Origin: Methanomassiliicoccaceae archaeon
Lineage (GTDB): Archaea > Thermoplasmatota > Thermoplasmata > Methanomassiliicoccales > Methanomethylophilaceae
Reading direction: 5' to 3'
Length of the DNA stretch: 42,351 nt
Assembly: GCA_009778575.1 (NCBI GenBank)
Contig: WRJJ01000005.1
Span: 1-42,351, forward strand
Below the pieces are notes generated by a model. That model did no database searches. It was given only the letters and a program-made list of their open reading frames with translations, and was not told the origin of the DNA. The translations under genes were made by a program, and so were the position numbers. Shown here piece by piece: positions 1-32,185 of this stretch. Every line of letters begins with the position of its first letter. Position 1 is the stretch's first letter.

Positions 1-3000
1 CTGGTTGGAGTGGCGGGTTCCGGCTTCACGATAACGCCGGGCGATGCACCGCTGACGATCCTGCTGTCGCCTGCGGTAGCGGTATCACTTTCCGCGACCC
101 CCGCCCCGTCCGGGACATTCTCCTACTGGAGCGGCTCGCACCCGGGTGTCGGAACAGGTCTGTCATTTGACATGGGAAGCACCGACGAGGCCGTAACGGC
201 GAACTTTGTCGCAGGGACCCCGTTCAACCTGACCCTGGATAAAACAGGGCCGGGGACGGTAAGCGTTTACGTTGACAGCGAGAAGATATACGAAGGAACG
301 AACGTGGTCATACCGTTCACTTCCGGCAAGGTCGTGAACGTAGAGGCAACCGCTGACAGCGGCCACTTCTCGTATTGGACTGTCAACAGCGCCGCGTCAC
401 CCGCAGGGTTCCTGATATTCGACGCAACGCAGAACATCATCATGTCGAACGACTACTACCTTACAGCGAACTTCACCACGACCGGAAGCGAGTACACTCT
501 TGACCTTGACCTAGGCGGGGCCGGATCCGGATCGATAACGGCGGAGGCGGGCGGAGGCACACAATCCATAACCTCCGCGAGGACGCTCTATTTCAGCTCC
601 GGAGAGAACGTGGGCCTGTCGGCTTCGACCGTCAGCGATAAGTTCTCCTACTGGAGCGTCTCAGGGCCCCTTCCCGCAGGATTCAACATCCTCGAGGGCA
701 CGTCCCAGACCATCACAATGAGCGATAACTACGACCTTACGGCCATGTTCGCCGGCACAGGATACAGCACGCTCAACCTGTCGGTTGTCAGAAACGGGAC
801 CATAACGGTGACCATCGACGGCGTAAGTTCCGCAGGCATCACGTCATATGAAGGATACTTCGATAACGACGTGACGGTATACCTCACAGCGGTAAAAGGC
901 GCTACCACGGAGTTCTCATACTGGAGTGCCGGAACCGGGTCTCTGCCGAGCGGCTTCGACCCGCTTGAATCCGCAATGCAGCCCGTGGATATGGATGACG
1001 ATTACGACCTGATCGCGAATTTCACGGGGAACACCAAGTACCTTCTGACAGTAGAACTGTCTGATTACGCAGCGGGAGAAGTGGACATAAGCATCGGCGG
1101 AAACACTGTTGTGACGGTCACATCGACCGTGTCTATGTTCGTTACGTCAAACACGGTTGTGACATTGACGGCCACCGCATATGCCCCTGACTACCTGTTC
1201 TCGTTCTGGAGCGGTACCACGGAAGGCATATCGGCCGCGCTGCCGGTCACAATGAGCAGCGCCCAGAACATAACCGCCGTGTTCGCAGAAACGGTAAGTT
1301 CCACTCCCCCGTGGGAACTCGATGTCAGAGCGGTCGGGCCAGGGAAGGTGGAAGCGGTCATTGACGGCTACCCCATTACCCTTTCCGACTTCGTCGGGAG
1401 CATACCCGTCACTGACGGGGTCACCGTAGAGCTGACCGCGGTCCCCAACACAACGGATGACATATTCCTCGAATGGGACGGCGGTCCGGATACCGGAACC
1501 GACGACAATCCCTCGGTATTCGATATAGACGACGACCAAACCATCACCGCATACTTCGCATCTTCCAACGACTTTATGCTGACGATAGATATCGTGGGTG
1601 CCGGCGAAGTCTATTATTCGATCGACGGAGGATCTCCCGTCCTGTACACATCCACCCCTGTCCCGGTACCGAGCGGCATGACGGTGGACCTGCAGGCTGT
1701 TCCCACAGGTCCGAACGTCTTCTCGTTCTGGAGCGGGGACTATGAGGGAGTGACAACGACGGGCTCGTTCACGATGGAGAAGTCATACAACATCACTGCC
1801 CTGTTCACGGGCAACACCTATTACACCTTGTCTCTGGCTATAGCGGACGGCGAAGGTGCAATAGAGGTTTCCGTGGAGATAGCTTCCGTCGTATACGGAT
1901 TCACATACACAAGCGATATGATGCCGGATGCAGTGAACATAGATGCAGGCGTGGACGTTACCGTAACGGCGGTGCCCGGAGCAAGCAACAAGTTCTCTTA
2001 CTGGTCGGGCACCGATAAGCCGGTCGGCTTCAGGATAGGGCTTGACGAGAATACATTCGCCATGAATGATGACTACGATCTGACCGCACACTTCACAGGG
2101 ACGGACTACAGGGCTCTCACTCTGGACATCTCCGGAGGCGGAACGATAGGCCTTGCGGTCGGAGGAGAAACACACACGATATTCGAATCGGACCTGACAT
2201 ATATTGGATACTTTGACTATGAAGCATATGTTTCTCTTACTGCGGCAGTGACCACCGCAGACGAGTTCTCATATTGGAGGGTCACGGGGACCACTCCTTC
2301 CGGCTTCGATATAACGAATGCATCGGCCCAGTCCATTCAGATGGAAGACGATTACAACCTGACGGCAGTGTTCACATCATCACCCTGGCACACTCTGGAG
2401 ATCGCCGCCACCGGCAATGGCGACATAACCGTCGCGCTCGGCGACGGGTCGCTGGTCATATTCTCCAGCGGAAGCAGGACGCTTTACCTCAATGAGGGAA
2501 CGGAGGTCATTATCACCGCAACTGCGACAGGAACCGATGTATTCTCATATTGGTTGGTAGACGGCAGCACCCCTGCATCTTTCGATATATCGAAAGGAAC
2601 GGCACAGACGGTCAAAATGGAAGATGACTACGATCTTACGGCCGTGTTCACCACCGGAACATTCTTCAAGCTGACCCTTGCCGCGATAGGGCCCGCCGGA
2701 ACGCACATAGCGGGGACATCCATCACAGTGACCCCTGTGCCAGGCGTTGGCAGCGGATCATTCAGCGTAGGGGCCGCAGGCTACGAAGGGTACTTCGATA
2801 TCGGGACCGAGATCGAACTGGAGGCAGTGGGAACCGCATCGAACCGCTTCTCTTACTGGAGCGGCGACATGCCGGACATAAATCCCCTCTCTGCAGGACA
2901 GACCTTCTCTATGGAAGACGACTATGACATGACCGCGAACTTCACCGCAGGTACACCGCGTAAACTTACGATAGGGGTCGACGGGGATGGAGAGGTGGAG

Positions 3001-6000
3001 GTCAAGTTCGGGTCCACGGTGGTGGGGGTCATATATTCGGACAGCGAGACATATGTTCCCAACGGCACCATCGTCACCCTTACGGCGACCCCCGGTGTAG
3101 GCCTGTTCTCCTTCTGGAGCTGCGACGCCGGCGACAGCGCATCTGAGGTTCTTGTACTATCGATGACCGCAGACCACACCGCGACGGCGGTGTTCACCGA
3201 CGGCATAAATGACCACAACATCACACTCGCCGTGAACAACACCGCATGGGGTTCAATATCCACTACGGTGGATACGGTTTCAGGCAATACTTACGTAATA
3301 TCTCTGTACGGCACCATTGCTGCACCCGTCATCATACCTCTGAGCCATGGCGACACGGTCTCTCTGTCAGCGGTGCCCGTAACACTGCCCGCTCCACACG
3401 CGTTCACGTTCTGGGTGGGAGACATCTCGACCGCCTCACATGATCCGTTGGAAATAGAGATGGACGACGATTATGAAGAGACGGCATACTTCACAGATGG
3501 GGTAAGAGATGTGGAACTCATCATCATCTTTGATGATGCCCTTGGATATGTGGAACTCACGGTACCTACCCTGTCCGCATCGCCTGTAATGGTGGTCTCC
3601 GGGGAAGCGATATATCTCAGCTCAGGACTGTCAATAACGCTTGAGGCCACGGCCACGGCGGCCGGTAATCACTTCTCGTATTGGAGCAGTTTCGTTGCTT
3701 CAATAGAGAATCCCTGGGGATTCGCACTGAACGAGACCAATTACACCGTAAATGCGTATTTCACAAACGGGACCGATGACAAAGAGCTCACGTTGGGCAC
3801 GGTCGGGGCCGGAAAGATATTGCTGACAATAGATTCGTTAATGGGGCCGGTAGGTCCAATCGATCTGATCGAAGGGCACACATGGTTCAACTACGACACG
3901 GAGATAACGGTCTCGCCTGTGGCAACAGGTGCCGTTAATTACTTCTCGTATTGGGCAGGCACAGTTCCAAGCGGATTTGTCGCAGGGTATCCCAGCGCGC
4001 AGACCTTCAATATGAGGGACAACTACGATATGACGGCGATCTTTACCACGGGAGAGGGGTGGACGCTTACCCTTACGGTAGACGACATTCCCGGAGGGGA
4101 CGGCATGATCACTGTTACCTTGCCCGAGGGAGGAAGCTTCGACGTTACCACCACATATACAGGGAAATATGACGATGAAACTCCTATACAGATAACTGTA
4201 TCCGCAGTATCCGGAATAATATCTGAGTTCTCCCACTGGGTGACTACTCTGACTACCCCCGCAGGGGTGGGAGGCTATGAAGATGTATTGACGTTCATAA
4301 TGAGCGCCGATTACGACCTGACAGCAGTATTCTACGATCCCGCAATGGCTGGAGACAGCTTCACGCTGGACCTTGACGTTGACGGACCCGGAACGATAGA
4401 GTTGTCAGTAGGGGGCTTTGATTCCTTCCCTGTTACTCTGCCATACACCCACACCTTCGCTGCGGGAACCCCGGTGGAGATCACCGCGGTACCCGACACG
4501 GGAATGGAGTTCTCACACTGGGAGGCCGCATCAGCGGCACCTGCTGGAGTTGCGGGAGATTCGGAACAGATAGCCTTCGACATGGACGACGACTTTGATC
4601 TGACCGCATTCTTCTACGACCCGGCAACGGCGGGAGACAGCTTCACGCTGGACCTTGACGCCGATGGACCCGGTACCATAGAACTCGCAGTCGGAGGATT
4701 CGACTCCGTCGCCATCACCCTGCCATACACCCACACCTTTGCTGCGGGAACCCCGGTGGAGATCACCGCGGTACCCGACACGGGAATGGAGTTCTCACAC
4801 TGGGAGGCCGCATCAGCGGCACCTGCTGGAGTTGCGGGAGACGCGATACAGATAGCCTTCGACATGGACGACGACTTTGACCTGACCGCGTTCTTCTACG
4901 ACCCGGCAACGGCTGGAGACAGCTTCACGCTGGACCTTGACGTTGACGGACCCGGAACCATCGAACTGGCGGTGGGAGGATTCGACTCCGTCGCCATCAC
5001 CCTGCCATACACCCACACCTTCGCTGCGGGAACCCCGGTGGAGATCACCGCGGTACCCGACACGGGAATGGAGTTCTCACACTGGGAGGCTGCCGGAGCG
5101 GCACCTGCTGGAGTTGCGGGAGATTCGGAACAGATAGCCTTCGACATGGACGACGACTTCGACCTGACCGCGTTCTTCTACGACCCGGCAACGGCTGGAG
5201 ACAGCTTCACGCTGGATCTTGACGCCGATGGACCCGGAACCATAGAACTCGCAGTCGGAGGATTCGACTCCGTCGCCATCACCCTGCCATACACCCATAC
5301 ATTTGCTGTAGGGACTGAGGTAGAGATCACTGCAGTTCCCGGAGGAGTTACATCTAACTTCTCGCACTGGGTATCTGCCGGAGCTACCGCTCCGACACCG
5401 TTCTCTTCATTATCTGATACGAATGTCTTTGATATGAATGAGAACTATGATCTGACAGCGGTATTCTTCACCGGTACCGGTAATGCTCTTGACGTTGCCG
5501 TCACCGGCGACGGAACGGTGAATGTGGAGGTCGGAGGGTTCACTATTGTTGTAACGGATGTTTTGCCATTCAGCCATGTGTTCGCACCAGGCACTGCAGT
5601 GACGCTTACTGCGGTTCCTTCGTTAACACCGTCTTACTTCTCTCACTGGGCGTCAGCAGGGGCCGTTACTCCTGCAGTGATGGATCCATTGTCTGCAACG
5701 AACGCTTTCAACATGAACAACGACTATGATCTGACAGCGGTGTTCTTCACCGGTGCCGGCAATGCTCTTGACGTTTCTGTCACCGGCGACGGAACGGTGA
5801 ATGTGGAATTCGGAGGGTTCACTATCGTGACAACGGATGTCTCACCATTCAGCCACGTGTTCGCACCCGGCACTGCAGTGACTCTCACTGCTGTACCTAA
5901 TGCTGCAGCAGGCTGGAGCTTCGTCAATTGGGAATGGACCACTGCCCCCGCAACGATGGATCCGCTTTCCATAGCGAACGCTTTCAATATGGGGGGCGAC

Positions 6001-6867
6001 TACGACCTGACGGCAGTGTTCCTTAACGAACCTCCCGGATCCAAGCAGTATGTCATAACCGCAACCGCAGACACCAATTCGAACATAACCCCATCCGGGG
6101 TCGTGACAGTGGAAAGCGGAACGAACCAGACATTCAGCTTCTACGCCGATAAGGACTATGTGATATACTCTGTGACAGTGGACGGAGTGCCCCTGTCCCA
6201 GGCTGAGATAGACAGCGGGCACTACACTTTCCGTTATGTGCTGATGAACCACACCATTGATGTCAAGAGCGTCTATTTCCCGAGGACCGACATAACTCTG
6301 AGGATCGACATAATGGAAGGCAGAGGGTACGCTGAATACAGCGTTAACGGCCTTCCATTTGTAAGATACGCAGGAGTTGTCGATCTTCCCGATCTAGCTG
6401 ATGTCATCGTCATAGCGTATGCCGACGGCGGTTACAGGTTCGACAGGTGGGAGACCCCTTCAGTGGACAGGTCATCCGAGATAGCGTTCTATGATCTCGG
6501 GGGGTCTCTGCATTTGAGACTTTACTTCACCTCGTCGGAGTCCCCCGCAGACGACAACACTCTGTTGTTGTTTGTAATCGGTATCATCCTGCTGCTGATA
6601 ATCGCAGGTCTCCTGATATGGTATCTTGCCTTCTACAGAAGGCAGGTAGATGTCATAAAGGTGGGATACTCGTCATCCATTATCGGAAAGGACAGGGTCT
6701 ACAGGAAGAGGGCTTATCATTTCTCAATAGAGGGAGGATACACCGGAGGGGTTTCGTACCGCGTCGGAGAGGACGGAATGTGGAAGTTGATATTCCCCAA
6801 CGAGAAGGGAGAATATGTCATACCGAGAGGTGAGATCGTAGAGAGTGTAACGATCGAGCAACGCTGA
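1..6867 (+). CDS. Giant InlB-repeat surface protein (adhesin-like), 5'-truncated by window
   Basis: The reading frame is open from the first base, so the true start lies outside the window; the GTG at 10 is only the first possible start seen. About 2285 residues are visible. They are almost entirely tandem units of roughly 75-95 residues, each with an aromatic core F-S-Y/F/H-W and ending in a D-Y-D-L-T-A-x-F motif. I count about 22 such units plus two divergent ones near the C-terminus (V-Y-S-V-T-V-D-G and F-D-R-W). This matches divergent InlB B-type / Listeria-Bacteroides repeats of surface adhesins. A hydrophobic segment at about 6559-6640 is followed by Arg-Arg and a basic tail of about 75 residues, so the protein is anchored with the repeats outside the cell. 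A host- or cell-adhesion role is inference from the family. Three to four units near 4336-5300 are almost identical in DNA. Confidence 0.85.
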   Translation: MVGVAGSGFTITPGDAPLTILLSPAVAVSLSATPAPSGTFSYWSGSHPGVGTGLSFDMGSTDEAVTANFVAGTPFNLTLDKTGPGTVSVYVDSEKIYEGTNVVIPFTSGKVVNVEATADSGHFSYWTVNSAASPAGFLIFDATQNIIMSNDYYLTANFTTTGSEYTLDLDLGGAGSGSITAEAGGGTQSITSARTLYFSSGENVGLSASTVSDKFSYWSVSGPLPAGFNILEGTSQTITMSDNYDLTAMFAGTGYSTLNLSVVRNGTITVTIDGVSSAGITSYEGYFDNDVTVYLTAVKGATTEFSYWSAGTGSLPSGFDPLESAMQPVDMDDDYDLIANFTGNTKYLLTVELSDYAAGEVDISIGGNTVVTVTSTVSMFVTSNTVVTLTATAYAPDYLFSFWSGTTEGISAALPVTMSSAQNITAVFAETVSSTPPWELDVRAVGPGKVEAVIDGYPITLSDFVGSIPVTDGVTVELTAVPNTTDDIFLEWDGGPDTGTDDNPSVFDIDDDQTITAYFASSNDFMLTIDIVGAGEVYYSIDGGSPVLYTSTPVPVPSGMTVDLQAVPTGPNVFSFWSGDYEGVTTTGSFTMEKSYNITALFTGNTYYTLSLAIADGEGAIEVSVEIASVVYGFTYTSDMMPDAVNIDAGVDVTVTAVPGASNKFSYWSGTDKPVGFRIGLDENTFAMNDDYDLTAHFTGTDYRALTLDISGGGTIGLAVGGETHTIFESDLTYIGYFDYEAYVSLTAAVTTADEFSYWRVTGTTPSGFDITNASAQSIQMEDDYNLTAVFTSSPWHTLEIAATGNGDITVALGDGSLVIFSSGSRTLYLNEGTEVIITATATGTDVFSYWLVDGSTPASFDISKGTAQTVKMEDDYDLTAVFTTGTFFKLTLAAIGPAGTHIAGTSITVTPVPGVGSGSFSVGAAGYEGYFDIGTEIELEAVGTASNRFSYWSGDMPDINPLSAGQTFSMEDDYDMTANFTAGTPRKLTIGVDGDGEVEVKFGSTVVGVIYSDSETYVPNGTIVTLTATPGVGLFSFWSCDAGDSASEVLVLSMTADHTATAVFTDGINDHNITLAVNNTAWGSISTTVDTVSGNTYVISLYGTIAAPVIIPLSHGDTVSLSAVPVTLPAPHAFTFWVGDISTASHDPLEIEMDDDYEETAYFTDGVRDVELIIIFDDALGYVELTVPTLSASPVMVVSGEAIYLSSGLSITLEATATAAGNHFSYWSSFVASIENPWGFALNETNYTVNAYFTNGTDDKELTLGTVGAGKILLTIDSLMGPVGPIDLIEGHTWFNYDTEITVSPVATGAVNYFSYWAGTVPSGFVAGYPSAQTFNMRDNYDMTAIFTTGEGWTLTLTVDDIPGGDGMITVTLPEGGSFDVTTTYTGKYDDETPIQITVSAVSGIISEFSHWVTTLTTPAGVGGYEDVLTFIMSADYDLTAVFYDPAMAGDSFTLDLDVDGPGTIELSVGGFDSFPVTLPYTHTFAAGTPVEITAVPDTGMEFSHWEAASAAPAGVAGDSEQIAFDMDDDFDLTAFFYDPATAGDSFTLDLDADGPGTIELAVGGFDSVAITLPYTHTFAAGTPVEITAVPDTGMEFSHWEAASAAPAGVAGDAIQIAFDMDDDFDLTAFFYDPATAGDSFTLDLDVDGPGTIELAVGGFDSVAITLPYTHTFAAGTPVEITAVPDTGMEFSHWEAAGAAPAGVAGDSEQIAFDMDDDFDLTAFFYDPATAGDSFTLDLDADGPGTIELAVGGFDSVAITLPYTHTFAVGTEVEITAVPGGVTSNFSHWVSAGATAPTPFSSLSDTNVFDMNENYDLTAVFFTGTGNALDVAVTGDGTVNVEVGGFTIVVTDVLPFSHVFAPGTAVTLTAVPSLTPSYFSHWASAGAVTPAVMDPLSATNAFNMNNDYDLTAVFFTGAGNALDVSVTGDGTVNVEFGGFTIVTTDVSPFSHVFAPGTAVTLTAVPNAAAGWSFVNWEWTTAPATMDPLSIANAFNMGGDYDLTAVFLNEPPGSKQYVITATADTNSNITPSGVVTVESGTNQTFSFYADKDYVIYSVTVDGVPLSQAEIDSGHYTFRYVLMNHTIDVKSVYFPRTDITLRIDIMEGRGYAEYSVNGLPFVRYAGVVDLPDLADVIVIAYADGGYRFDRWETPSVDRSSEIAFYDLGGSLHLRLYFTSSESPADDNTLLLFVIGIILLLIIAGLLIWYLAFYRRQVDVIKVGYSSSIIGKDRVYRKRAYHFSIEGGYTGGVSYRVGEDGMWKLIFPNEKGEYVIPRGEIVESVTIEQR
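4336..5300 (+). repeat. Near-identical 282-bp tandem repeats inside the adhesin gene
   Basis: Units begin at 4336, 4618, 4900 and 5182, exactly 282 bp (94 codons) apart. The first three are nearly identical over their whole length. The fourth matches for about its first 120 bp and then diverges. Each starts D-P-A-x-A-G-D-S-F and ends D-D-D-F-D-L-T-A-F-F-Y. The neighbouring units on both sides are far more diverged, so this block looks recently amplified or homogenised by recombination. Such blocks are prone to copy-number change and to short-read assembly collapse. Confidence 0.95.
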
Positions 6868-12762: not shown

Positions 12763-13758
12763 TCAGTCCATGGCAGCATTTATCGTCAGCTCTGATATGT
12801 CCACGCAGTATTCCGCGATGCGCTTGGCGCTTCCTGCGATAAGGCTTGTGGATGATGCGGTCTCAAGGTTGACCTCCACCTTTTTGAAGGTCTTCTCGAT
12901 CTTCTTCACCAGCCTCTCGCCCTCTTCAATACACCATTCTGCGACGACCATGTCCGTCTTTAACCAACCTTTTATTGATTCGGTGTACAGTACTGTGATC
13001 TCCTTTCCGATCTCCATGATGCCTTTGTCCACGGCCTCGGCCTTCTTGCCGTCCATTAGCGCCATCAGGTTCTTGGAAAGAAGCACGGTGTGGTCCCCTA
13101 TCCTCTCAAGTATTCTGCTGACGGCGATATGGTTCGTCAGTTCGCAAAGGCTGGATCCGATCTTTTTGCACAACCAGGGATCCTTTTTGTAGATGTTGTT
13201 CTGCCTGGATATAAGCCAATGGACCCTGTCGACCTCTATGTCCCTTTTTTCTATATCAGAGATATAAGAAACGTCGTTGCTGACGGCGGATTCGAAAACA
13301 TCGTCGATCATCTTCCTCACAAGGATGCTCATCCTTTCCAAACTCTTGCTGGGCCTGATCTCGCTATGATCCATTAGGTCCTTGATGAGTATGCGGTAGT
13401 TGTCTTCCTCCACCACCTCAAGTCCGATGGAGGTCTGTGTGAACGAGTTCACAATGTTTATGGCGGCGTTCGAAAGCGGCTGTTCCGAGAATGCTTCGAT
13501 CATGTTATGGCCGGAAATATAGGCTCCGACCAGCTGCCTGTAGAACGCGTCTTCTTTCTTTACGTTGGTAGCATCTATTCTTTTTATGTCCCTGGGGACC
13601 TCTATTTTTTTGACAGGGGAAACAAGAAGGTCCCCGTCCGACTGCACCTCGACGTTCACACTGTCGTTCTTCTTCAAGCTCATCGATTCCGCCCATTCTT
13701 TTGGGAGGGTGATCATGTATGATTCGCCCTGGGTGATCTGTATGCGTCTTGTGTCCAT
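12763..13758 (-). CDS. AbrB-PhoU fusion: phosphate uptake regulator
   Basis: 331 residues. Residues about 1-50 form a SpoVT/AbrB swapped-hairpin DNA-binding domain (R-R-I-Q-I-T-Q-G-E-S-Y-M-I-T-L-P-K-E-W-A). Residues about 75-330 contain PhoU-like helical repeats, with the E-x-x-x-D motif region I-S-D-I-E-K-R-D-I-E-V-D and S-R-I-L-E-R-I-G-D-H. This architecture is typical of archaeal phosphate-system regulators. It is divergent from pstS across 141 bp, so it very probably binds that region and controls the pst operon. A second, stand-alone PhoU is encoded at the end of the operon, so sensing and transport control may be split. Confidence 0.85.
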   Translation of the reverse strand: MDTRRIQITQGESYMITLPKEWAESMSLKKNDSVNVEVQSDGDLLVSPVKKIEVPRDIKRIDATNVKKEDAFYRQLVGAYISGHNMIEAFSEQPLSNAAINIVNSFTQTSIGLEVVEEDNYRILIKDLMDHSEIRPSKSLERMSILVRKMIDDVFESAVSNDVSYISDIEKRDIEVDRVHWLISRQNNIYKKDPWLCKKIGSSLCELTNHIAVSRILERIGDHTVLLSKNLMALMDGKKAEAVDKGIMEIGKEITVLYTESIKGWLKTDMVVAEWCIEEGERLVKKIEKTFKKVEVNLETASSTSLIAGSAKRIAEYCVDISELTINAAMD

Positions 13759-13899: not shown

Positions 13900-14760
13900 T
13901 TGGACAAAAAGATGATATTGGCAATTGCAGTCGTCGGTATAGTCTGTCTCGCCGGCGGATATATGATCGGCAGCAGCACGTCCGACAAAGAGGGCGCGGC
14001 GACTATATTTGCAGAGGGATCGACCACAGTGGCGCCCCTTATGAACAAATATGCAGAGATATACGAAGGTTATGAGAATGTTAGAATAGAGGTCATCGCC
14101 AACGGCTCGCAGAATGGTGTAGATGCGGCCAACAGTGGTAATGCGGACATAGGTATGTCTTCAAGGAACAAGGGCCACTCGTCCCATGCAGGCCTGACCG
14201 AAACGAAGATCGCCACTGATACGGTCGTTCTGATAGTCGGATCCAACGCAGGGATCACATCGCTGACCAAACATCAGATCATTGACATATACAACGGAAC
14301 GATCACAAACTGGAACCAGGTCGGCGGTAACAACGCAACTATAGTGGTGGTCGATCGCGACCAGGGCTCGGGTACGAGGTCTTACTTCGAAGAGTCCTTT
14401 GCCAGCACGACAACACCCGCCAAGACGCTGAACTCAACTCGCAGCTGGACATCCATGGCCGCGACCGGTGCAGTGATATCCTATGTTGAGAGCAATCCCA
14501 ACGCGATAGCGTACGTCAGCCTCGGCAGCCTTACCACGAACGCCGAGAAGAACATGGCCTTATCCCTTAACATGAACAACGTCGAGGGCAGCGGCACTGC
14601 AGTCTCACCGATATCGGATCTCTCGAACTACCCGCTCAAGAGAGACCTTGTGCTCCTGACCAAGGGTACGCCCACCGGAAAGATCGCAATGTTCATAGGT
14701 TGGATGCTCAGTCCGGAAGGCCAGAAGATCGCAGAAGAAGTAGGATTCCTCCCACTATAA
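13900..14760 (+). CDS. pstS: Phosphate-binding protein PstS
   Basis: The extracellular phosphate-binding component of the Pst ABC importer. 286 residues from a TTG start with a GAGGTGA site 6 bases upstream. Residues 5-24 are an N-terminal signal or anchor helix; there is a Cys at about 16 but no good lipobox, so membrane anchoring by the helix is likely. Phosphate-contacting motifs are E-G-S-T-T-V-A-P (about 39-46) and the G-S-G-T-R loop (about 153-157). The I-Y-N-G-T-I-T-N-W segment is typical of PstS. It is the first gene of pstS-pstCA-pstB-phoU on one strand, 13 bases before pstCA. Confidence 0.93.
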   Translation: MDKKMILAIAVVGIVCLAGGYMIGSSTSDKEGAATIFAEGSTTVAPLMNKYAEIYEGYENVRIEVIANGSQNGVDAANSGNADIGMSSRNKGHSSHAGLTETKIATDTVVLIVGSNAGITSLTKHQIIDIYNGTITNWNQVGGNNATIVVVDRDQGSGTRSYFEESFASTTTPAKTLNSTRSWTSMAATGAVISYVESNPNAIAYVSLGSLTTNAEKNMALSLNMNNVEGSGTAVSPISDLSNYPLKRDLVLLTKGTPTGKIAMFIGWMLSPEGQKIAEEVGFLPL

Positions 14761-14773
14761 TCTCGGTGTTCCG

Positions 14774-16717
14774 ATGAGCACAGACAAAGGAACCCCCAGG
14801 CGTAAAAGCGCTGACTGGGGGCTCCAAAAATATTTACTGACGGGTGTTGCGGCAACATCCGTCGCCATTATTTTTCTGATCATTCTATTCATTTTCTTGG
14901 AAAGCATAGATGCGGTAATAGACATCGGCCTGTGGGACTTCGTCTCAGGCATGACCTGGAACTGGGAGCAGGACAAATACGGAGCGTTCCCGATCATAAT
15001 AGGCACGGTCCTTACGACGGCAGGCGCACTTATAATCGCAGTCCCGCTCGGACTGACCGCCGCGACATACCTTTCCGAGATAGCCTCCGAAAGAACAAGG
15101 AATATCCTCAAACCCATATGCGAAGTATTCGCGGGGATCCCCTCCATAATATACGGGTTCTTCGGGCTCATGGTCATAGTTCCGTTCATATTCAATACGT
15201 TCCCGGACCTGGCACCGGCCGGGCTGTCGTGGCTGGCCGCATCGATACTTCTCGGTTTCATGGCTCTGCCAACCATAATCTCGGTGTCAGACGACGCGAT
15301 GCGCGCAGTTCCGAGGTCATACAGGGAAGCGTCCGTGGCCGTAGGCGCCACGCATTGGGAGACCACAAGGAAAGTGGTCATCCCCGCAGCATTCTCCGGG
15401 ATATCCGCGGCGGTAATGCTGGGTATGGGACGCGCCATCGGAGAGACGATGGCCGTGGTAATGGTCGCGGGAAAGGTGTCGAACATCCCCGACCCCCTAT
15501 GGAACATCTTTGATATGGTGAATCCCATAACGTCCGTACTGGCGACCGAGACCGGAGAGGCCTCGGGGCTTCACCTGGCCGCATTGTTCCTGCTCGCGCT
15601 GGTTCTCATGGCGATGGTTCTGCTGGTCAACGTATTGGCAAACATCATAATGAAGAATACAAAGAAGAAATTCGAAACGGGACAGAGCATGATGGAGAAA
15701 CACATCCCCGAAAAGCTCAAGGGGTTGATCTCCCCGGCAAAACGCATGGTCATGCTCTCGTCCGTGTTCCTTTTCGTAATGCTGATGGCCTCTCTGCTCC
15801 TGAGCTTGGGGGTATCTGCGTCCATAGCGTTCCTGTGCGTCCTTTTCATCGTTGCGATGCCGCACATCTCCAAGCGCATAAAGCCGCTTGATAGACAGAA
15901 GGTTGCTCATTCGGTCATGACCTCATCGATGGTGGCGGTCGTGATCATACTGATCATTTTGGTATCGGACATAGTCATAAAGGGAGTACCTTCTCTGTCA
16001 TGGGAGTTCCTCACGGATGTTCCCAGGGACATGGGAAAAAGCGGAGGCATACTGCCGGCCATAGTAGGTACAATAGAGCTGATCGCGGGGACGGCGCTGA
16101 TAGCGATCCCCCTGGGTGTACTTACGGGGATATATCTATCCGAATTCGCCAGAGACTCGAAGTTCACAAGGATCGTCAGGTCATCGATGAACATACTGAG
16201 CGGTACTCCGTCGATCGTCTTCGGACTGTTCGGTTACGCCTTGTTCTTCCACTACCTTGGCATAGGGAGGACCCTTATCGGAGGATGCATAGTCCTTGCT
16301 TTCCTGGTCCTTCCGGTGATCATTAGGACAACGGAGGAAACAGTCAAAGCGGTGCCGCAAGATCTCAGAGAGGCCTCGGCCGCCATGGGCGCGTCAAAAT
16401 GGGAAACGACGATGAGGGTCATCGTTCCTGCCGCCATGGGCGGCGTAGTGACGGGAGTGATCCTGAGTCTGGGACGTGCTGCAGGAGAGACTGCACCGAT
16501 AATGTTCGTTGCAGCAGCTACAATACTGAGGAACATTAATTTCTCGCTGTTCGACAGCGTCATGGCATTGCCGTACTATCTGTATTATCTGACAGAGGTT
16601 CCGGGTTCTTCAGCTACTAGGTACGGCGTGGCACTGGTGCTTATGATCATCGTCCTTTCGATGTTCGCACTAGCGTCATGGGTAAGATATCATTATTCAA
16701 AGAAAGTGAGGTGGTAA
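14774..16717 (+). CDS. pstCA: Fused phosphate ABC permease PstC-PstA
   Basis: One uninterrupted 647-residue frame carries both permease subunits. Residues about 1-300 match Pst[22 protein letters not shown], and an EAA loop [14 protein letters not shown]. Residues about 370-647 match Pst[23 protein letters not shown] and a second EAA loop [15 protein letters not shown] linker of about 60-70 residues contains two further hydrophobic helices (about 318-360), an even number that keeps the orientation of PstA. PstC and PstA are normally separate proteins that pair in the membrane; here they are covalently joined. The context, pstS before and pstB after, supports the assignment. Confidence 0.92.
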
Positions 16718-16748: not shown

Positions 16749-17495
16749 GTGATCACATCGACCGGTCTCAACCTGTGGTATGGAGACAATCAAGCACTGA
16801 TCGATGTTTCCATGCCCGTAGCGAAGAACAAGGTCACGGCCCTCATAGGGCCCTCCGGATGCGGGAAATCGACCTTCATCAGGTGTATGAACAGGATGAA
16901 CGATCTGATCGACGGATGCAGGATCGAAGGGAGCATCACCTTCCACGGCGACGAGATATTCGGCCCCGATGCGGATGTGATCGCCCTGAGAAAACGCATA
17001 GGTATGATCTTTCAGAAACCGAACCCGTTCCCGATGACCATACGGGATAACATCACGTACGGTCCGAAGATACACGGGATCACGGACAAGAATGAGTTGG
17101 AGGAGATCGTCGAACGGTCTTTGAAGCAGGCTGTCCTGTGGGATGAGGTAAGCGACCGTCTGGATAAGCCGGCGTTCTCCCTCTCCGGAGGGCAGCAGCA
17201 GAGACTGTGCATCGCACGCGCGCTGTCGATAAACCCGGAGGTCATACTGATGGATGAACCCACCTCCGCACTCGACCCCATAGCGACGGCGAAGATAGAG
17301 GACCTCGCGATCGAACTTCAGAAAGAGTATACGGTGGTGATCGTCACCCACAACATGCAGCAGGCCGCCCGCATAAGCGATTACACCGGATTCATGTATC
17401 TCGGAAAGATGATCGAGTTCAACGAGACGGAGAAGATATTCAACAAGCCCTCGGAGGAACTCACGGAAAGATACATAACGGGAAGATTCGGGTGA
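16749..17495 (+). CDS. pstB: Phosphate ABC transporter ATP-binding protein PstB
   Basis: The ATPase of the Pst importer, 248 residues from the GTG at 16749. Walker A is G-P-S-G-C-G-K-S-T, the signature is L-S-G-G-Q-Q-Q-R, and Walker B is [12 protein letters not shown]. The start is uncertain. The only good ribosome site, GAGGTG at 16708-16713, lies 36 bases before the GTG, but five bases before an in-frame ATT at 16719. Starting there would add ten residues (Y-D-S-E-E-N-Y-E-N after the first). The ATG at 16741 is out of frame. It is followed by phoU after 4 bases. Confidence 0.93.
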
Positions 17496-17499
17496 TACA

Positions 17500-18165
17500 A
17501 TGAGAAGATTATTGCAAGATCTAAGATCGGTGACCACCTCGGTCACCGAGATGGGGGAACTGGTGGCGAGTATGCTGGAAGATGCCGTGGATGCACTGCT
17601 GAAATCCGACACGGAGCTGGCGGAGCAGGTGCTGGAGAGATACGACAGGGTCGCATTCCTGGATTCCATGATAGAAGAAGAGGCGATGAGGATACTGATC
17701 CTGTATCAGCCGATGGCCTCGGACATGAGGTTCGTGGCGACGGCGATGAAGATCATAACCCACCTTGAGCGTATAGGAAAATACAGTAAGAACATCGCGA
17801 AAGCCTCCATTTATCTGAAGGACAGGCCGGTAATATTCCGCATCGATGAGGTGCTCGATATGTGCGAGGTCGCAGTGGAAATGGTGCGCGGCGTCGTTAA
17901 TGCGTTCGAGACGAAGAATATCGAAGGTCTCGAGGACTACAACAGTCTGGACGATAAACTGGATATCAGCAGGATAAAGGTCATAGACGGGAATATCCAG
18001 CATATGCGTGATGATCCCACTTCCATAGAGGCGTATACCTACTATATCTCAGTCGCGAAATACCTGGAACGCGTCGGAGACAATGCGTGCAAGATAGCCG
18101 AGAAAATAATCTATATGGTCTCCGGAAAGCACATGGAGATAGGCGATGACAAGAGCACCTTATGA
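17500..18165 (+). CDS. phoU: PhoU phosphate transport accessory/regulatory protein
   Basis: 221 residues, all helical, with two PhoU three-helix repeats. The metal-binding ExxxD-type motifs are visible as A-T-A-M-K-I-I-T-H-L-E-R-I-G-K-Y (about 85-95) and V-A-K-Y-L-E-R-V-G-D-N-A-C-K-I-A-E (about 186-202). PhoU proteins restrain Pst transport and phosphate signalling. It is the last gene of the pst operon, 4 bases after pstB. Unlike the divergent regulator at 12763-13758 it has no DNA-binding domain. Confidence 0.9.
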   Translation: MRRLLQDLRSVTTSVTEMGELVASMLEDAVDALLKSDTELAEQVLERYDRVAFLDSMIEEEAMRILILYQPMASDMRFVATAMKIITHLERIGKYSKNIAKASIYLKDRPVIFRIDEVLDMCEVAVEMVRGVVNAFETKNIEGLEDYNSLDDKLDISRIKVIDGNIQHMRDDPTSIEAYTYYISVAKYLERVGDNACKIAEKIIYMVSGKHMEIGDDKSTL

Positions 18166-25464: not shown

Positions 25465-25783
25465 ATTGTACATGGCCGTATTCGACGAATGCCGAAAATA
25501 ACCATTTCCGTCAGTTGAATAGGTGCTGTTTGTTCGATCTTTTCGCAAATTATTGACATTTTCGAAATAAATGTATGCCATTAAATAATTAGTAAATATT
25601 CGTAAATTACGAATATTCTTTTGTTATATACAAATAAATTAGTGTTTGTCCGTTAGGTATATATGCAAATTCGTAATTACAATTCATTGTGATGAAGCGG
25701 ATCCCTCCAAGAAACGCATGTTTCAACTTCGAAGGGCCGCGTCACGCCAAAACACTATAGGAAATCTCAAAGGATTGATTATA

Positions 25784-28700
25784 ATGCAAAAAAGCAGAAA
25801 GCAAAAAGCGACCTCAATGCTTCTTGTTGTTCTCATGATCTCCACTATGTTCGTGGGGGTCTCTCTGCCCATCATTCACTCTACGTCAGTGGCAGCTGAG
25901 GAGAACGAAGCCGTCGAGCTCGCATCATGGACCTACAGTCCTAACAGAAACAATGGCGAGATCAACGCCAGTTTGACCGCTAACAATGTGGGAGGCAACT
26001 CCTATAAGGCCAATGACGGAGTGTACAAGGACGTATCCTTGTTCTCCGGAAGGAAATACACTACAGACGAACGCAATAGCAACCATGCAATGGTGGGCTC
26101 ATCTGGATACATATCCTTCGGAACGGCGGATCCCGCTTTTAGAGAAGGAGACTATATACAATTCCAACTTTCTACTAAAGGTTACGAAGACATTACCTTT
26201 GGCATCCTTATGCGTTTAACGGGAGGCGCCCCCGGAGACTTCGAGCTGCAGTACAGCTACACCGGAGCCGAGAGCGACTACCATGACACCGGACTGACGC
26301 TTTCCAGAAGGTCAGCCGCAACATTTGAAGAAACCTTTACATTCAAACTCCCCACGGAGTGCGAGGATCAAGAAACCTTATTCGTCCGCATGATCGTTGT
26401 GGGAAGCACATCGGTAGTCGGCGGCACAATAACCACTACGGGCACATGGGGAATCGATAACGTAGCTTTTACCAGTGGTTATGTGGGTTCCGGCAATGAC
26501 GACGATGACGATGACGACAATGGAATTGAGATCGCATCCTGGAGATACAGCCCAAACAGGGTCAACGGCGAGATCAACGCAAATCTGACGATCAATGGGA
26601 AGGGCAATAACACCTACGGTGCTAACAGCGGAGTGTACAAGGACGTATCCTTGTTCTCCGGAAGGAAATACACCACAGACGAACGCAACAGCAACCATGC
26701 AATGGTGGGCTCATCAGGATACATATCCTTCGGAACGGCGGATCCCGCCTTCAGGGAAGGGGACTATATACAATTCCAACTGTCCACAAAGGGATATGAC
26801 GACATAACATTCCTTATCCTAATGCGCCTTACGGGAGGAGCCCCCGGAGACTTCAAGATAATTTACAGTTACACCGGAGCCGAGAGCGACTACCACGATA
26901 CCGGCCTTACCATCAACAGAAGGAATGCGATGCCGATCGAAGAGGTATTCTCCTTTGAGTTGCCCACCGTCTGCGAGGACCAGGAGACACTGTTCCTCCG
27001 CATTGTCGTTGTAGGTTCTACGGCCATTGCGGGCGTTCCGATCACGACAACGGGAACATGGGGGATAGACAATGCCCTTTTCATAAGCGGATACGTTGAG
27101 CCCGAGCCCCCAGTGGATGAAGGGGTTGACATCGCATCGTGGAAATACAGTCCGAACAGAAACAACGGCGAGATCAACGCCAGTTTGACCGCTAACAATG
27201 TGGGAGGCAACTCCTACAAGGCCAATGACGGAGTATACAAAGATGACTCCTTCCTCTCCGGAAGGAAATACACTACAGACGAACGCAACAGCAACCATGC
27301 AATGGTGGGCTCATCAGGATATCTCTCGTTCGGTACCGATAACCCGAGTTTCCGTGAAGGGGATCATTTCCAGTTCCAACTGTCCACGCTAGGCTATGGG
27401 GACATAACTCTCAGCATTCTTATGCGTTTAACGGGAGGCGCCCCCGGCGACTTCAAACTCGAGTACAGCTACACGGGAGAGGAAGACAGTTTCAGGGACA
27501 CAGGACTAACTCTCAGCAGAAGGTCGGCGACGACCATCGAGGAGACCTTTGACTTCAAACTTCCGAGGTCGTGCGAAAATCATGAGACGTTGTACATCCG
27601 CATCACTGTAGTAGGATCAACGTCGGTCGTCGGCAACACAATAACCACTACCGGCACATGGGGGATCGACAATGTTGTGTTCAACAGCAAGAAGATCATC
27701 AACACCATCCCAGGCGGCGACATGGATAAGATCGCATCATGGAAGTACAGCCCGAATATAGTCAACGCCGAGATAAATGCTTGGCTGATGTCCAATGACA
27801 TGGGTGACTTCACCTATCACGCCAATGGCGGAGTGTATGCAGCGGAGTCCTTTGTATCTGCAAGAAAATACACAACGGACCAGCGTAACACCAACCACTC
27901 TCTGAGGGGTTCGTCCGGTTACATCTCATTCGGCACCGAAACGGCTTTTGTTGAAGGAGACTACTACCAGTTCCAGCTGTCCACACGCGGATACGAGGAT
28001 GTTAACCTAAGTATCCTCATGCGTATTACCAGCGGCGGCCCTGGTGACTTCAAGTTGCAGTACAGCTACACCGGAGCCGAGGACGATTATCACGACAGCG
28101 GCCTTACGCTTTCAAGAAGATACTCCGGAACCGTTGAGGTCACTGACCTGTTCGTACTTCCGGAAGAGTGCTGGGACCAGGACATCCTGTTCCTCCGTCT
28201 GACCATTGTAGGCAACAGGTCGCAGGGTGGCGGAACAATATCCACGACAGGCACATGGGGGATAAACAACATTGTCTTCAACAGCGGCCTGGACGAGCAG
28301 TTCCTGGCTCAGTACCTGAGCGTAGAAGTGATCACTCCGCAGGAGCTTTTGGACAAAGGCGACAAAGTGGATGTACAGGTAAAGGTAAAGAACATCAGCT
28401 CATTCGACATAGCGGATGTGAATGTGCACATGGATGCTCCGTACTTTGCGGTACCATTCAGCGGAAAGGCGGACACATTGATCAACATCAAGGCAGGAGA
28501 GACTGTAACGCTCTATTACAGCTATATTGTGATAGAGGGTGGCAGAGAAGCATTCTACGCCACAGTCGAAAGAAGCGGGGCCAAACTCTTGGGCTTTGAC
28601 GGCATATCCGTCAGCGGCTCAGGCTACTTCAGAGGTGATAACCACTCTCACTCATTATACAGCGACGGCAGTGGAACCATTGCCGACAATGTGAATGAGG

Positions 28701-31700
28701 CCTACTACAACAAGATGTTGTCGTGGCTGTACAGCACAGACCACAACACCCTTGCTCAGACATCCGACACTCTGACCCAGACGGTGCGCATGAACGGAAG
28801 TTTCCTCAACATCGCAGGGAACGAGTTCACAGCGTACAACGGTCACGCCTTGTTCCTCGGCATCGATGTCAATCCCATCACCGAAGTTGTTCCCTACAAC
28901 CTCAGCATAGGTATCGATGAAGCGGACAAACTGACAGGAAAGGATTACGGCAATCTGCAGAAATGGCAGGACATGGTGAATTTCGTTACCGGCCTCGGTG
29001 GCTCTTTCTACATGGCCCACCCATACAGCACCACGCTGGGGTTCGACTATCGCCCTCTCGTTATGAGTGACAACACCATCAGAGACATCAGAGGATTCAC
29101 CGGGATGGAAATATGGAATGGATCATATACAAGTGCAGGTAACGTTCAGTCACGTGAAACTTGGGATAAGGTAAATACACAGGGTACCGGCCACTATAAT
29201 GGTATCGCTACCTCCGACGCTCACGCAGCGGCCAACATCGGTGTGGAATACATCAAAGCGTTCCTGCCCGGACTCACAGTGGGCAACGTCAATGATATAT
29301 TGGTAAGCGGCAAATATTTCGGATCCAACGGACCCGAAGTACGCTTCGACATAGATGGTGTCGGCATATCTGAAACGTTGAACATAACGGGCAGTAGCAA
29401 AACGGCTGATTTCAACATCCATGTTTATTCGCCTGTATATGACTTGACCAAGGTGGAGATCATAAAGAACACCATTACCGGAAACTTCGAGAGCAACAAG
29501 CAGGTGGTCTACTCCTATACCTTTGCTGGAGAGAGCACCAATGTTTTCGACAAAGTAATCCAACTTGAGGTCAAGCCCGGCGAGTTCTATCGTGTAGAAG
29601 TGGAAAGTAAGTGTGCAATCACTACCATGACCTCTCTTGGATTCGCTATAACTAACAACATCTGGATCGACAGTGCGTCCAAATCCAATGCGGTCAATCT
29701 CAGCGATGTTCAGTATGTCGGAAGCGGCATCGAACTCAAAACATTACCAACAGGAATAATGTACCTCGACTCTTCGAACGATGCAGTACTCAACCTCAAC
29801 GATCTGTCTGCGTCTGTTTCAAGCGGTGCAACCCTCGGTAAGGCATATGATCCGAGCGCAGGCATTGTTACTCTGACTGTAACAGCAGAGGACGGTACGG
29901 TATCCAGTACTGAGATCTTCATGGTGAACGCCACGCCAGAACTCTCCTTCGAAGCTGAGACCCTGACCCTTACGCCGGGTTCCACAGAGAGGGATGTGAA
30001 CTTCACTTGGTACAGCGACAGGGCCGACAACACGGCCTCGGTCGTGCAGATGACCGCCACGTCAAGCCTCGTCAACGGCGAGTTCCCCGCTACCGGTGTG
30101 ATCACCCTCACCGGAACGGTGGGAGACGCTTCCGCAGGCAAGAGCTGGCACAAGGCATCCGCTACCGGTCTTGAATACGACACCGAATACTCATACCGCG
30201 TTTCCAACGACGGAGTGAACTTCAGTGAGACATACACATACAAGACGGTAGCTTCCGGAAGCTTCCAGTTCATAGCCGTGGGAGACCCGCAGCTTACGAC
30301 CGGGAACCAGGACAGCAACAGTCTCGGAACGATAGTCACCACCAAAGAGGGATGGCAGAACACCATCGACCTCATCAAGCAGTACTTCCCCAACGCCAGT
30401 TTCATGGCGGGAACGGGAGACCAGGTGGATACCGCAACGAGTGAGGAACAGTACACCAACTACTTCGCACCCGACTACCTCCGTGTTCTGCCCATCGCAC
30501 CCGCGGTCGGCAACCACGAGGGAACGGCGCCCAACTTCGGCTACCACTACAACGTGCCGAACGAGAACGCCAACGCGGCCGCCGATCACTACGGCAACTA
30601 TTGGTACGTGTACAACAACGCCTTGTTCGTGGTACTGAACACAGCACCCTACCCGTCAACCCCGGCACAGGTGGACGCTTACATCGCAACGATGGAAGCG
30701 ACCCTTGCGGCGGCGACGGCAGCGAACCCCGATGTGACATGGATATTCGTGCAGCACCACAAGTCCACAACATCCCCCGCCTCTCACCAGACGGATGCGG
30801 ACGTCCTTCTCTGGGCGCCCGAGTTCAACAAGCTGATGGACAGGTACAACGTGGACTTCGTCCTCGCCGGACACGACCACGTCTACTCCAGAAGCTGGTT
30901 CATACTGGACAACGAGAAAGTGGAAGGGATCGACTACACCCTGAACGAAGTGACCAACCCCGAAGGAACACTGTACTTCACCTTCACGACCGCCTCCGGT
31001 CTGAAATACTACGACTTCCTGATCAACGCCCCCGCCGCCCCGGCGTGGGTCGCTGACAACAGCGGTCTGTATTACGATGGGAAGAACAGCATCGGAACCC
31101 CCAACGGAAAACCGTGGTACACCAACGTAGGTATCCAGATAAAGGTGCCTCAGTTCACGTCGGTGGATGTGACCGAGAACAGCGTCACATTCAAGACCTA
31201 CAGGACCGACACGATGGCCGTCATCGACGAGTACACCGTATACAAGACAGATGTGGCTGGACCTAATACCTACACAGTGACCTTCAAGGACTGGGACGGA
31301 ACGATCCTCAAGACGCAGACCGTCGAGGAAGGATCGAACGCCACAGCGCCTGCGAACCCGTCAAGGGCAGGTTACACATTCGCAGGGTGGGACAGGACCT
31401 TCTCCAATGTCACGGGCGATCTTACGGTGAACGCGAGATACACCCAGAACGGCACCGGAACGAACGACACCCGCAGCATATCTCTTGACAAGACGGGGAC
31501 GCAGAACCTATCTGCCATATATGGGTACTCCTCAGCATCTCCTCTCAATGTGACGGTGACCAACACCGGCACAGTGGCAACGGGAGTGCTGAGCGTGTCT
31601 TTGTCCGGAGCAGGAGCGTCTAACTTCACGTTGTCGGTATCGTCAGTGGACAGTCTCTCTGTTGGGGGAACAAGTACCTTTACCGTAACGCCCAAAACGG

Positions 31701-32185
31701 GACTTGCGGCGGGAACTTACACCGCAACAGTGACTGTAAGCGGATCTAACAATCTGGCATCCAAAGTGCTCATTGTGTCCTTTACCGTGGATAAGAAGTC
31801 GATCACCTTCACCGGAACGGTCACTGCTTCGAAACAGTATGACGGGAACGGGGACTTCGGCAACTCGCAGATAGTGATCCACAACGCAGGCAGTTTCAGC
31901 GGCCTTGTGGCAGGCGACAGCGTGACCCTTGACAAATCGGGTGTGACCGGAAGGCTCGCATCCGGGGCCAGGGACGGGAACCTTACGCTGAGCGGAACGT
32001 TCACTTTGACAGGAGCGGCAGCGAACAACTATATGTTGTCCGCACAGCCCCCGGTCTCTGCGACCGTTAACGGCGGAACCGATGACGGCGGTTCGGACGA
32101 CACAGTGCTGTACATAGTAATGATCGGCATCGCTATAGTCGCGTTGGCGATCATCGGGTTCATGCTGCTGCGTCCGAAGCACTGA
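25784..32185 (+). CDS. Giant surface protein with PHP and purple-acid-phosphatase-like domains
   Basis: 2133 residues from the ATG at 25784, which begins a signal peptide (residues about 1-38, ending S-V-A-A-E-E). The frame is open to 25646 but that part is not signal-like. Domain order: four copies of a 200-residue module (from residue 44 to about 837); a CARDB-like beta segment (about 845-940); a PHP metalloesterase domain of CehA/McbA type (about 945-1180) with D-N-H-S-H (His954, His956), S-T-D-H, M-A-H-P, M-E-I-W-N-G and S-D-A-H; a beta region; an Fn3-like/PAP N-domain (about 1385-1490); a calcineurin-like phosphoesterase (about 1495-1800) with G-D-P-Q, G-D-Q-V-D, G-N-H-E (1576-1579), Q-H-H and G-H-D-H (1696-1699); one InlB repeat; YDG-like repeats; and a C-terminal membrane helix (about 2107-2127). 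The enzyme domains face outside. Scavenging of organic phosphate is plausible inference. Confidence 0.88.
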   Translation: MQKSRKQKATSMLLVVLMISTMFVGVSLPIIHSTSVAAEENEAVELASWTYSPNRNNGEINASLTANNVGGNSYKANDGVYKDVSLFSGRKYTTDERNSNHAMVGSSGYISFGTADPAFREGDYIQFQLSTKGYEDITFGILMRLTGGAPGDFELQYSYTGAESDYHDTGLTLSRRSAATFEETFTFKLPTECEDQETLFVRMIVVGSTSVVGGTITTTGTWGIDNVAFTSGYVGSGNDDDDDDDNGIEIASWRYSPNRVNGEINANLTINGKGNNTYGANSGVYKDVSLFSGRKYTTDERNSNHAMVGSSGYISFGTADPAFREGDYIQFQLSTKGYDDITFLILMRLTGGAPGDFKIIYSYTGAESDYHDTGLTINRRNAMPIEEVFSFELPTVCEDQETLFLRIVVVGSTAIAGVPITTTGTWGIDNALFISGYVEPEPPVDEGVDIASWKYSPNRNNGEINASLTANNVGGNSYKANDGVYKDDSFLSGRKYTTDERNSNHAMVGSSGYLSFGTDNPSFREGDHFQFQLSTLGYGDITLSILMRLTGGAPGDFKLEYSYTGEEDSFRDTGLTLSRRSATTIEETFDFKLPRSCENHETLYIRITVVGSTSVVGNTITTTGTWGIDNVVFNSKKIINTIPGGDMDKIASWKYSPNIVNAEINAWLMSNDMGDFTYHANGGVYAAESFVSARKYTTDQRNTNHSLRGSSGYISFGTETAFVEGDYYQFQLSTRGYEDVNLSILMRITSGGPGDFKLQYSYTGAEDDYHDSGLTLSRRYSGTVEVTDLFVLPEECWDQDILFLRLTIVGNRSQGGGTISTTGTWGINNIVFNSGLDEQFLAQYLSVEVITPQELLDKGDKVDVQVKVKNISSFDIADVNVHMDAPYFAVPFSGKADTLINIKAGETVTLYYSYIVIEGGREAFYATVERSGAKLLGFDGISVSGSGYFRGDNHSHSLYSDGSGTIADNVNEAYYNKMLSWLYSTDHNTLAQTSDTLTQTVRMNGSFLNIAGNEFTAYNGHALFLGIDVNPITEVVPYNLSIGIDEADKLTGKDYGNLQKWQDMVNFVTGLGGSFYMAHPYSTTLGFDYRPLVMSDNTIRDIRGFTGMEIWNGSYTSAGNVQSRETWDKVNTQGTGHYNGIATSDAHAAANIGVEYIKAFLPGLTVGNVNDILVSGKYFGSNGPEVRFDIDGVGISETLNITGSSKTADFNIHVYSPVYDLTKVEIIKNTITGNFESNKQVVYSYTFAGESTNVFDKVIQLEVKPGEFYRVEVESKCAITTMTSLGFAITNNIWIDSASKSNAVNLSDVQYVGSGIELKTLPTGIMYLDSSNDAVLNLNDLSASVSSGATLGKAYDPSAGIVTLTVTAEDGTVSSTEIFMVNATPELSFEAETLTLTPGSTERDVNFTWYSDRADNTASVVQMTATSSLVNGEFPATGVITLTGTVGDASAGKSWHKASATGLEYDTEYSYRVSNDGVNFSETYTYKTVASGSFQFIAVGDPQLTTGNQDSNSLGTIVTTKEGWQNTIDLIKQYFPNASFMAGTGDQVDTATSEEQYTNYFAPDYLRVLPIAPAVGNHEGTAPNFGYHYNVPNENANAAADHYGNYWYVYNNALFVVLNTAPYPSTPAQVDAYIATMEATLAAATAANPDVTWIFVQHHKSTTSPASHQTDADVLLWAPEFNKLMDRYNVDFVLAGHDHVYSRSWFILDNEKVEGIDYTLNEVTNPEGTLYFTFTTASGLKYYDFLINAPAAPAWVADNSGLYYDGKNSIGTPNGKPWYTNVGIQIKVPQFTSVDVTENSVTFKTYRTDTMAVIDEYTVYKTDVAGPNTYTVTFKDWDGTILKTQTVEEGSNATAPANPSRAGYTFAGWDRTFSNVTGDLTVNARYTQNGTGTNDTRSISLDKTGTQNLSAIYGYSSASPLNVTVTNTGTVATGVLSVSLSGAGASNFTLSVSSVDSLSVGGTSTFTVTPKTGLAAGTYTATVTVSGSNNLASKVLIVSFTVDKKSITFTGTVTASKQYDGNGDFGNSQIVIHNAGSFSGLVAGDSVTLDKSGVTGRLASGARDGNLTLSGTFTLTGAAANNYMLSAQPPVSATVNGGTDDGGSDDTVLYIVMIGIAIVALAIIGFMLLRPKH
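25913..28294 (+). repeat. Four tandem 600-bp modules in the giant phosphoesterase gene
   Basis: Units start at 25913, 26525, 27125 and 27725, so the period is 600 bp except for the first (612 bp, longer by an Asp-rich linker at about 26498-26520). Each begins I-A-S-W-x-Y-S-P-N and ends T-T-T-G-T-W-G-I-D/N-N. Long DNA tracts are almost identical between units 1 and 2 (about 26030-26150 versus 26640-26760) and between units 1 and 3, while unit 4 is more diverged. The protein module (beta-rich, F-R-E-G-D-x-x-Q-F-Q-L-S-T, L-M-R-L-T-G-G-A-P-G-D-F) resembles a carbohydrate-binding or choice-of-anchor type beta-sandwich, but I do not recognise the family. Confidence 0.9.

Follow-up and report, generated by a model that had tools for sequence, protein, structure and literature searches.

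Two unrelated metal-dependent hydrolase domains fused in a predicted methanogen surface protein

The window analyzed here, 42,351 nucleotides of contig WRJJ01000005.1 from a Methanomassiliicoccaceae archaeon, contains an open reading frame on the forward strand (25646-32185) that is uninterrupted over its length. The likely start codon is the ATG at 25784, with an AAAGGA-like ribosome site upstream, and residues are numbered throughout from base 25646. mcrA is found in the host genome and topoisomerase VI in the window, identifying the host as a methanogenic archaeon. From the N to the C terminus the protein comprises a signal peptide, four modules, a linker, a PHP domain, a purple acid phosphatase (PAP) N-terminal domain with a metallophosphoesterase (MPE), an InlB-type repeat, a choice-of-anchor-like stretch and a membrane helix, with the following coordinates.

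25784..32185, + strand: whole gene, likely ATG start, encoding a 2133-aa surface protein (open frame 25646-32185)
25784..25921, + strand: signal peptide region (MQKSRKQKATSMLLVVLMISTMFVGV...), hydropathy peak at residues 54-80
25913..28300, + strand: four tandem beta-rich modules of ~190 residues, starting at 25913, 26525, 27125 and 27731
28301..28600, + strand: linker, by eye an Ig-like/NEW3-type domain before PHP (sequence reading only, no Pfam match)
28601..29365, + strand: PHP domain of the CehA/McbA type (NF038032, E = 2.6e-23; nine ligands)
29366..29929, + strand: remainder of the CehA-type unit and linker to the MPE (the NF038032 match reaches residue 1342)
29930..31249, + strand: PAP N-terminal domain and calcineurin-like metallophosphoesterase (PF16656, PF00149; alignment of seven relatives)
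31250..31459, + strand: InlB B-repeat / Listeria-Bacteroides repeat (PF09479, 2.6e-9; internalin B chains by sequence)
31460..32080, + strand: choice-of-anchor-D-like surface stretch (NF012200, 7e-5, below cut-off)
32081..32182, + strand: C-terminal membrane helix with basic end (LLRPKH), hydropathy peak 3.05 at residues 2157-2175

The original prediction was of a secreted, membrane-anchored chain carrying two unrelated phosphoesterase folds. Hydrophobic stretches at residues ~54-80 (signal peptide) and 2149-2178 (C-terminal anchor) agree with a single exported and anchored chain, and two unrelated metallohydrolase folds do lie on it, each scoring above the cut-off of a curated profile. All ten motifs quoted for them were confirmed by reading the sequence: DNHSH (998), STDH (1030), AHP (1124), EIWNG (1155) and SDAH (1190) in the PHP domain, and GDPQ (1546), GDQVD (1591), GNHE (1622), QHH (1703) and GHDH (1742) in the MPE. 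The predicted surface protein has two unrelated metal-dependent hydrolase domains with nearly all of their metal-binding residues intact; taken alone, each domain is of a common type. The predicted structure of the 978-residue PHP+MPE part, made with four sequences, has a mean pLDDT of 38, and the metal sites are thus judged from sequence alone.

The PHP domain matches NF038032 (CehA_McbA_metalo) over residues 993-1342 with E = 2.6e-23, narrowly passing the cut-off of 80 with 83 bits. All nine PHP ligands are in place (H1000, H1002, D1007, H1033, E1060, H1067, H1125, D1191 and H1193), and all nine positions are among the 16 invariant columns in an alignment of six CehA-like sequences from archaea, Streptomyces and Hymenobacter. 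Their order is that of the trinuclear site of the phosphodiesterases Sb-PDE and No-PDE (H61, H63, D68, H93, E135, H142, H203, D260 and H262; PMC11656708). Spacing within motifs is identical or one residue apart (H+0, H+2, D+7 and H+33 against +32; E to H +7; D to H +2), and the longer stretches connecting the motifs vary in length. Both enzymes are single-domain proteins of Sphingomonadaceae, Sb-PDE being secreted, and were compared with the present domain by ligand spacing alone. When solved structures were searched with the profile of the PHP alignment the best match was 3E38 (E = 2e-14), which is the template structure in PMC11656708 and is there assumed to be a phosphatase. The metal motifs of this domain had been described as intact, and this holds for the nine ligands; EIWNG is conserved, yet falls outside the ligand list of the PHP diesterases (PMC11656708). 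The domain resembles the CehA/McbA family in its above-threshold profile match and its complete set of metal ligands, and the family has known secreted members; those compared are about 25-30% identical to it. The PHP domain here is joined to an MPE. The founders CehA and McbA hydrolyse carbamate esters, for which histidines of their PHP-like domain are needed (PMC8292978). Because Sb-PDE and No-PDE share this set of nine ligands, cleavage of phosphoesters by the PHP domain is likely, but with carbamate hydrolases as founders of its type it is not given.

The second hydrolase unit matches PF16656 (Pur_ac_phosph_N) at 9e-10, over the cut-off, and PF00149 (Metallophos) at 1.4e-11, with 45.6 bits against a gathering cut-off of 21.5. 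It retains six of the seven PAP ligands (D1547, D1592, N1623, H1705, H1743 and H1745), the conserved ligand in QHH being the second histidine, H1705. The seventh position, a tyrosine in PAPs, is occupied by D1595. Seven relatives aligned over the PAP_N + MPE unit are 32-73% identical to the window's copy; the six ligands are retained in those that cover them, and the tyrosine position of GDx2Y is D, N or E in every one. The solved structures matched by the MPE profile are all PAPs (best 3zk4, E = 6e-16), and 3zk4 and 1kbp share the six ligands by profile alignment but have the iron-binding tyrosine of GDxxY where this MPE has aspartate. Set against the PAP motif list of DxG, GDx2Y, GNH(E/D), Vx2H and GHxH (PMC2553084), the MPE reads GDPQ for DxG and GDQVD, lacking the tyrosine ligand, for GDx2Y. 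That tyrosine is responsible for the purple colour of PAPs and accompanies ferric iron, and a relative with histidine at this position has been termed non-purple (PMC2553084). We therefore classify the MPE as a PAP-related, non-purple phosphoesterase rather than a PAP; the purple-acid-phosphatase-like label was right for the domains and for all five motif regions but not for the defining tyrosine. In the plasmid collection its closest bacterial relatives come from Paenibacillus, Lachnospira and Nonomuraea. Those of Paenibacillus cellulosilyticus and Lachnospira eligens also combine PAP_N and Metallophos without the tyrosine (32-35% identity over the unit). In contrast to the present protein they have no PHP fusion, and by eye their own C-terminal parts are S-layer-type repeats or sorting-like ends.

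Related archaea carry the same MPE behind other partners. In the same-genus surface proteins of G005, G012 and G006 the MPE is 62-73% identical to the window's and is not accompanied by PHP. In G005 it lies behind a tail-like region recognized by eye, with no Pfam match (62% identity including flank), and in G012 behind a second MPE (66%) that weakly resembles cyclic-nucleotide phosphodiesterases. In G006 it directly follows a leader 36% identical to the window protein's over residues 5-112, as far as the contig extends. In this G012 surface protein (L027, 11258-15205 of G012:C11) two metallophosphoesterase domains of different kinds follow one another. In G005 and G012 the MPE gene adjoins nifS/iscU-like genes, as judged by eye, and no synteny was found between the window gene and these two loci. 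The GC content at third codon positions (GC3) of the MPE is 0.78 in the window, 0.83 in G005 and 0.80 in G012, compared with 0.55-0.65 before it and 0.53-0.74 in other genes of the window. Since the high GC3 is kept behind differing partners, the MPE travels as a single unit that retains a composition of its own.

The other half of the architecture occurs in a sister genus, where G043 encodes a surface PHP protein with the same InlB repeat, anchor stretch and helix, and no MPE. About 6 kb away on the same contig lies a second surface protein with module relatives (31-35% identity), FIVAR and a phytase-like domain (L117, 11216-13960 of G043:C4, minus strand, cut at the contig end). The phytase-like profile matched none of 61 relatives, the window's own genome included and G043 outside that set, and a family-wide phytase-like feature is not supported. 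The comparisons indicate that the PHP+MPE protein is a product of cassette shuffling, a mobile MPE and a PHP cassette on a shared surface chassis. Given the interchangeable partners, the second MPE of G012 and the phytase-like protein of G043, phosphoester-type domains on an exchangeable chassis form a small recurring theme.

The four modules had been called adhesive-looking. Four copies are indeed present, copies 2-4 being 63-79% identical to copy 1 in protein, and their nature looks instead like that of a beta-sandwich of the carbohydrate-binding type. The structural model of the module is of low confidence (all-beta, pLDDT 58) and many of its Foldseek matches are carbohydrate-binding modules, weakly suggesting such a resemblance. 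Module relatives were found only in G043:C4. DNA identity between copies is patchy, from 0.97 to 0.48 per 60 bases, with 97% in one 60-base block and about 60% in the neighbouring block, a pattern that gene conversion between copies would be expected to give. The choice-of-anchor-D-like stretch recurs in another surface protein of the same genome (G000:C22, 1-5612), a 1951-aa frame with repeated anchor-type domains that are 45-55% identical to the C-terminal stretch here.

The PHP+MPE architecture is real and uncommon. The pair occurs only in the window's own genome among 101 relatives, and again there alone in a second sample of 390 genomes from the phylum; these sets overlap in part, and the about 490 genome searches within the phylum gave no second fusion. 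Among 463 bacterial genomes (68 of the phylum of L107 and 395 of that of L109) none has both domains in one frame, and in the 68 both occur on separate genes. No record covering most of the query was found in 72,556 plasmids and 50,697 phages, and pattern scans of viral contigs gave no relative. A two-sequence PHP pattern run against genome contigs gave three stand-alone PHP genes, none fused. Complete reading of the large frames with MPE matches in G527 and G510 showed no PHP, and they were rejected as fusions. We found no description of a PHP+calcineurin fusion in the literature. The combination had been thought unusual, and the roughly 950 genome searches, plasmids and phages are in keeping with this; they used a single-sequence query that could miss distant fusions and lay outside the chromosomes of Firmicutes, on which uniqueness depends.

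Phosphate genes are present in the window as follows.

13900-14760: pstS
14774-16717: fused pstCA
16749-17495: pstB
17500-18165: phoU

PstC and PstA are apparently fused in a 647-aa frame with two permease domains (14774-16717). Divergent from these genes, a PhoU-domain protein with an N-terminal MazE/AbrB-type DNA-binding domain (12763-13758, minus strand) is likely a phosphate regulator. The full Pst importer noted originally is thus complete. It lies 7.6 kb upstream of the surface-protein gene, and the interval from phoU to that gene carries, on both strands, genes for a nitrilase-like protein, NAD synthase, a methyltransferase, an ABC importer of the metal type and a transporter of the YaaH type, so that the link is one of neighbourhood and not of an operon. 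A ZIP zinc transporter gene lies just downstream of the surface-protein gene in convergent orientation. At the contig edge the window encodes a second giant surface protein (10-6867; 2285 aa, seven divergent InlB B-repeats).

How the two domains might work together can be read in several ways. The original prediction was of two folds acting in series, and in its strict form the PHP domain would convert a diester to a monoester from which the MPE of the same chain releases phosphate for import by Pst. PAP-type MPEs are often monoesterases, which fits such a scheme, as does the full set from pstS to phoU in the window. Known PHP diesterases strongly prefer diesters, the monoester being the substrate of another enzyme (PMC11656708). 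MPEs can themselves be diesterases, however, the pst genes are not adjacent, and the MPE cassette pairs with other partners elsewhere. The G005 protein, with an MPE and no PHP at all, means that the two domains need not act together. Action in series is therefore plausible but the pairing is not obligatory, and we regard the strict sequence as possible though unlikely. Alternatively the PHP domain might be an esterase for carboxyl, carbamate or other non-phosphate bonds, so that the chain would cut two kinds of bond in one substrate such as an esterified, phosphorylated glycan. CehA/McbA is the sole curated profile that the domain passes, and its founders are carbamate hydrolases dependent on histidines of their PHP-like domain (PMC8292978), but the nine-ligand trinuclear set is also that of Sb-PDE, and the best solved relative, 3E38, is an assumed phosphatase (PMC11656708). 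We consider this reading unlikely.

Two further explanations were considered. The fusion occurs in one draft genome of 90 contigs, with a sharp step in GC3 from 0.55 to 0.78 at the join of the PHP unit and the MPE, as an assembly chimera might have. Yet the reading frame is open through 6.5 kb, two independent genomes have the same step at the same MPE border with other partners, and the C-terminal chassis carries PHP in G043 too; a chimera is very improbable. The protein might instead be mainly an adhesin whose hydrolase domains have decayed or only bind, given the four modules, the InlB repeat and another large repeat protein in the window. The PHP domain nevertheless has its full set of metal ligands and the MPE all but one of its seven, and we give this reading very little credence.

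The reading that we prefer, at about even chances, is of a modular surface hydrolase with two active sites that would take phosphoester compounds apart outside the cell. Export would depend on the signal peptide, the C-terminal helix would anchor the chain, and the four beta-sandwich modules may attach it to a glycan or another polymer. A phosphodiester (or other ester) would be cleaved at the trinuclear metal site of the PHP domain and a phosphoester at the binuclear site of the non-purple PAP-like MPE, setting free phosphate or a phosphate-poor product near the membrane. Secreted PHP phosphodiesterases are known that yield phosphate stepwise in combination with a second enzyme, a monoesterase (PMC5460133, PMC11656708). 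The protein arose when a mobile MPE cassette and a PHP cassette were placed on one of the surface chassis of the family. The sequence comparisons establish its architecture, the families of its domains, the conserved ligands and the exchange of cassettes; catalysis, substrate, export, the sequence of steps and the fate of the phosphate are inferences from them. A more ambitious and doubtful proposal is that it is the first single-chain, membrane-anchored diesterase-plus-monoesterase, with which methanogens of this family would strip phosphate from a module-held polymer (such as teichoic acid, nucleic acid or phosphorylated glycan), and one of several interchangeable surface phosphoesterases of the family.

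The surface proteins of host-associated methanogens are mostly labelled 'adhesin-like' and no further, and here a testable surface chemistry can be named. The comparison shows how such proteins are made: an MPE cassette of distinct composition, a PHP cassette and binding modules are swapped on a shared leader-and-anchor chassis. If both domains work, the result would be a compact, two-site phosphate-scavenging enzyme.
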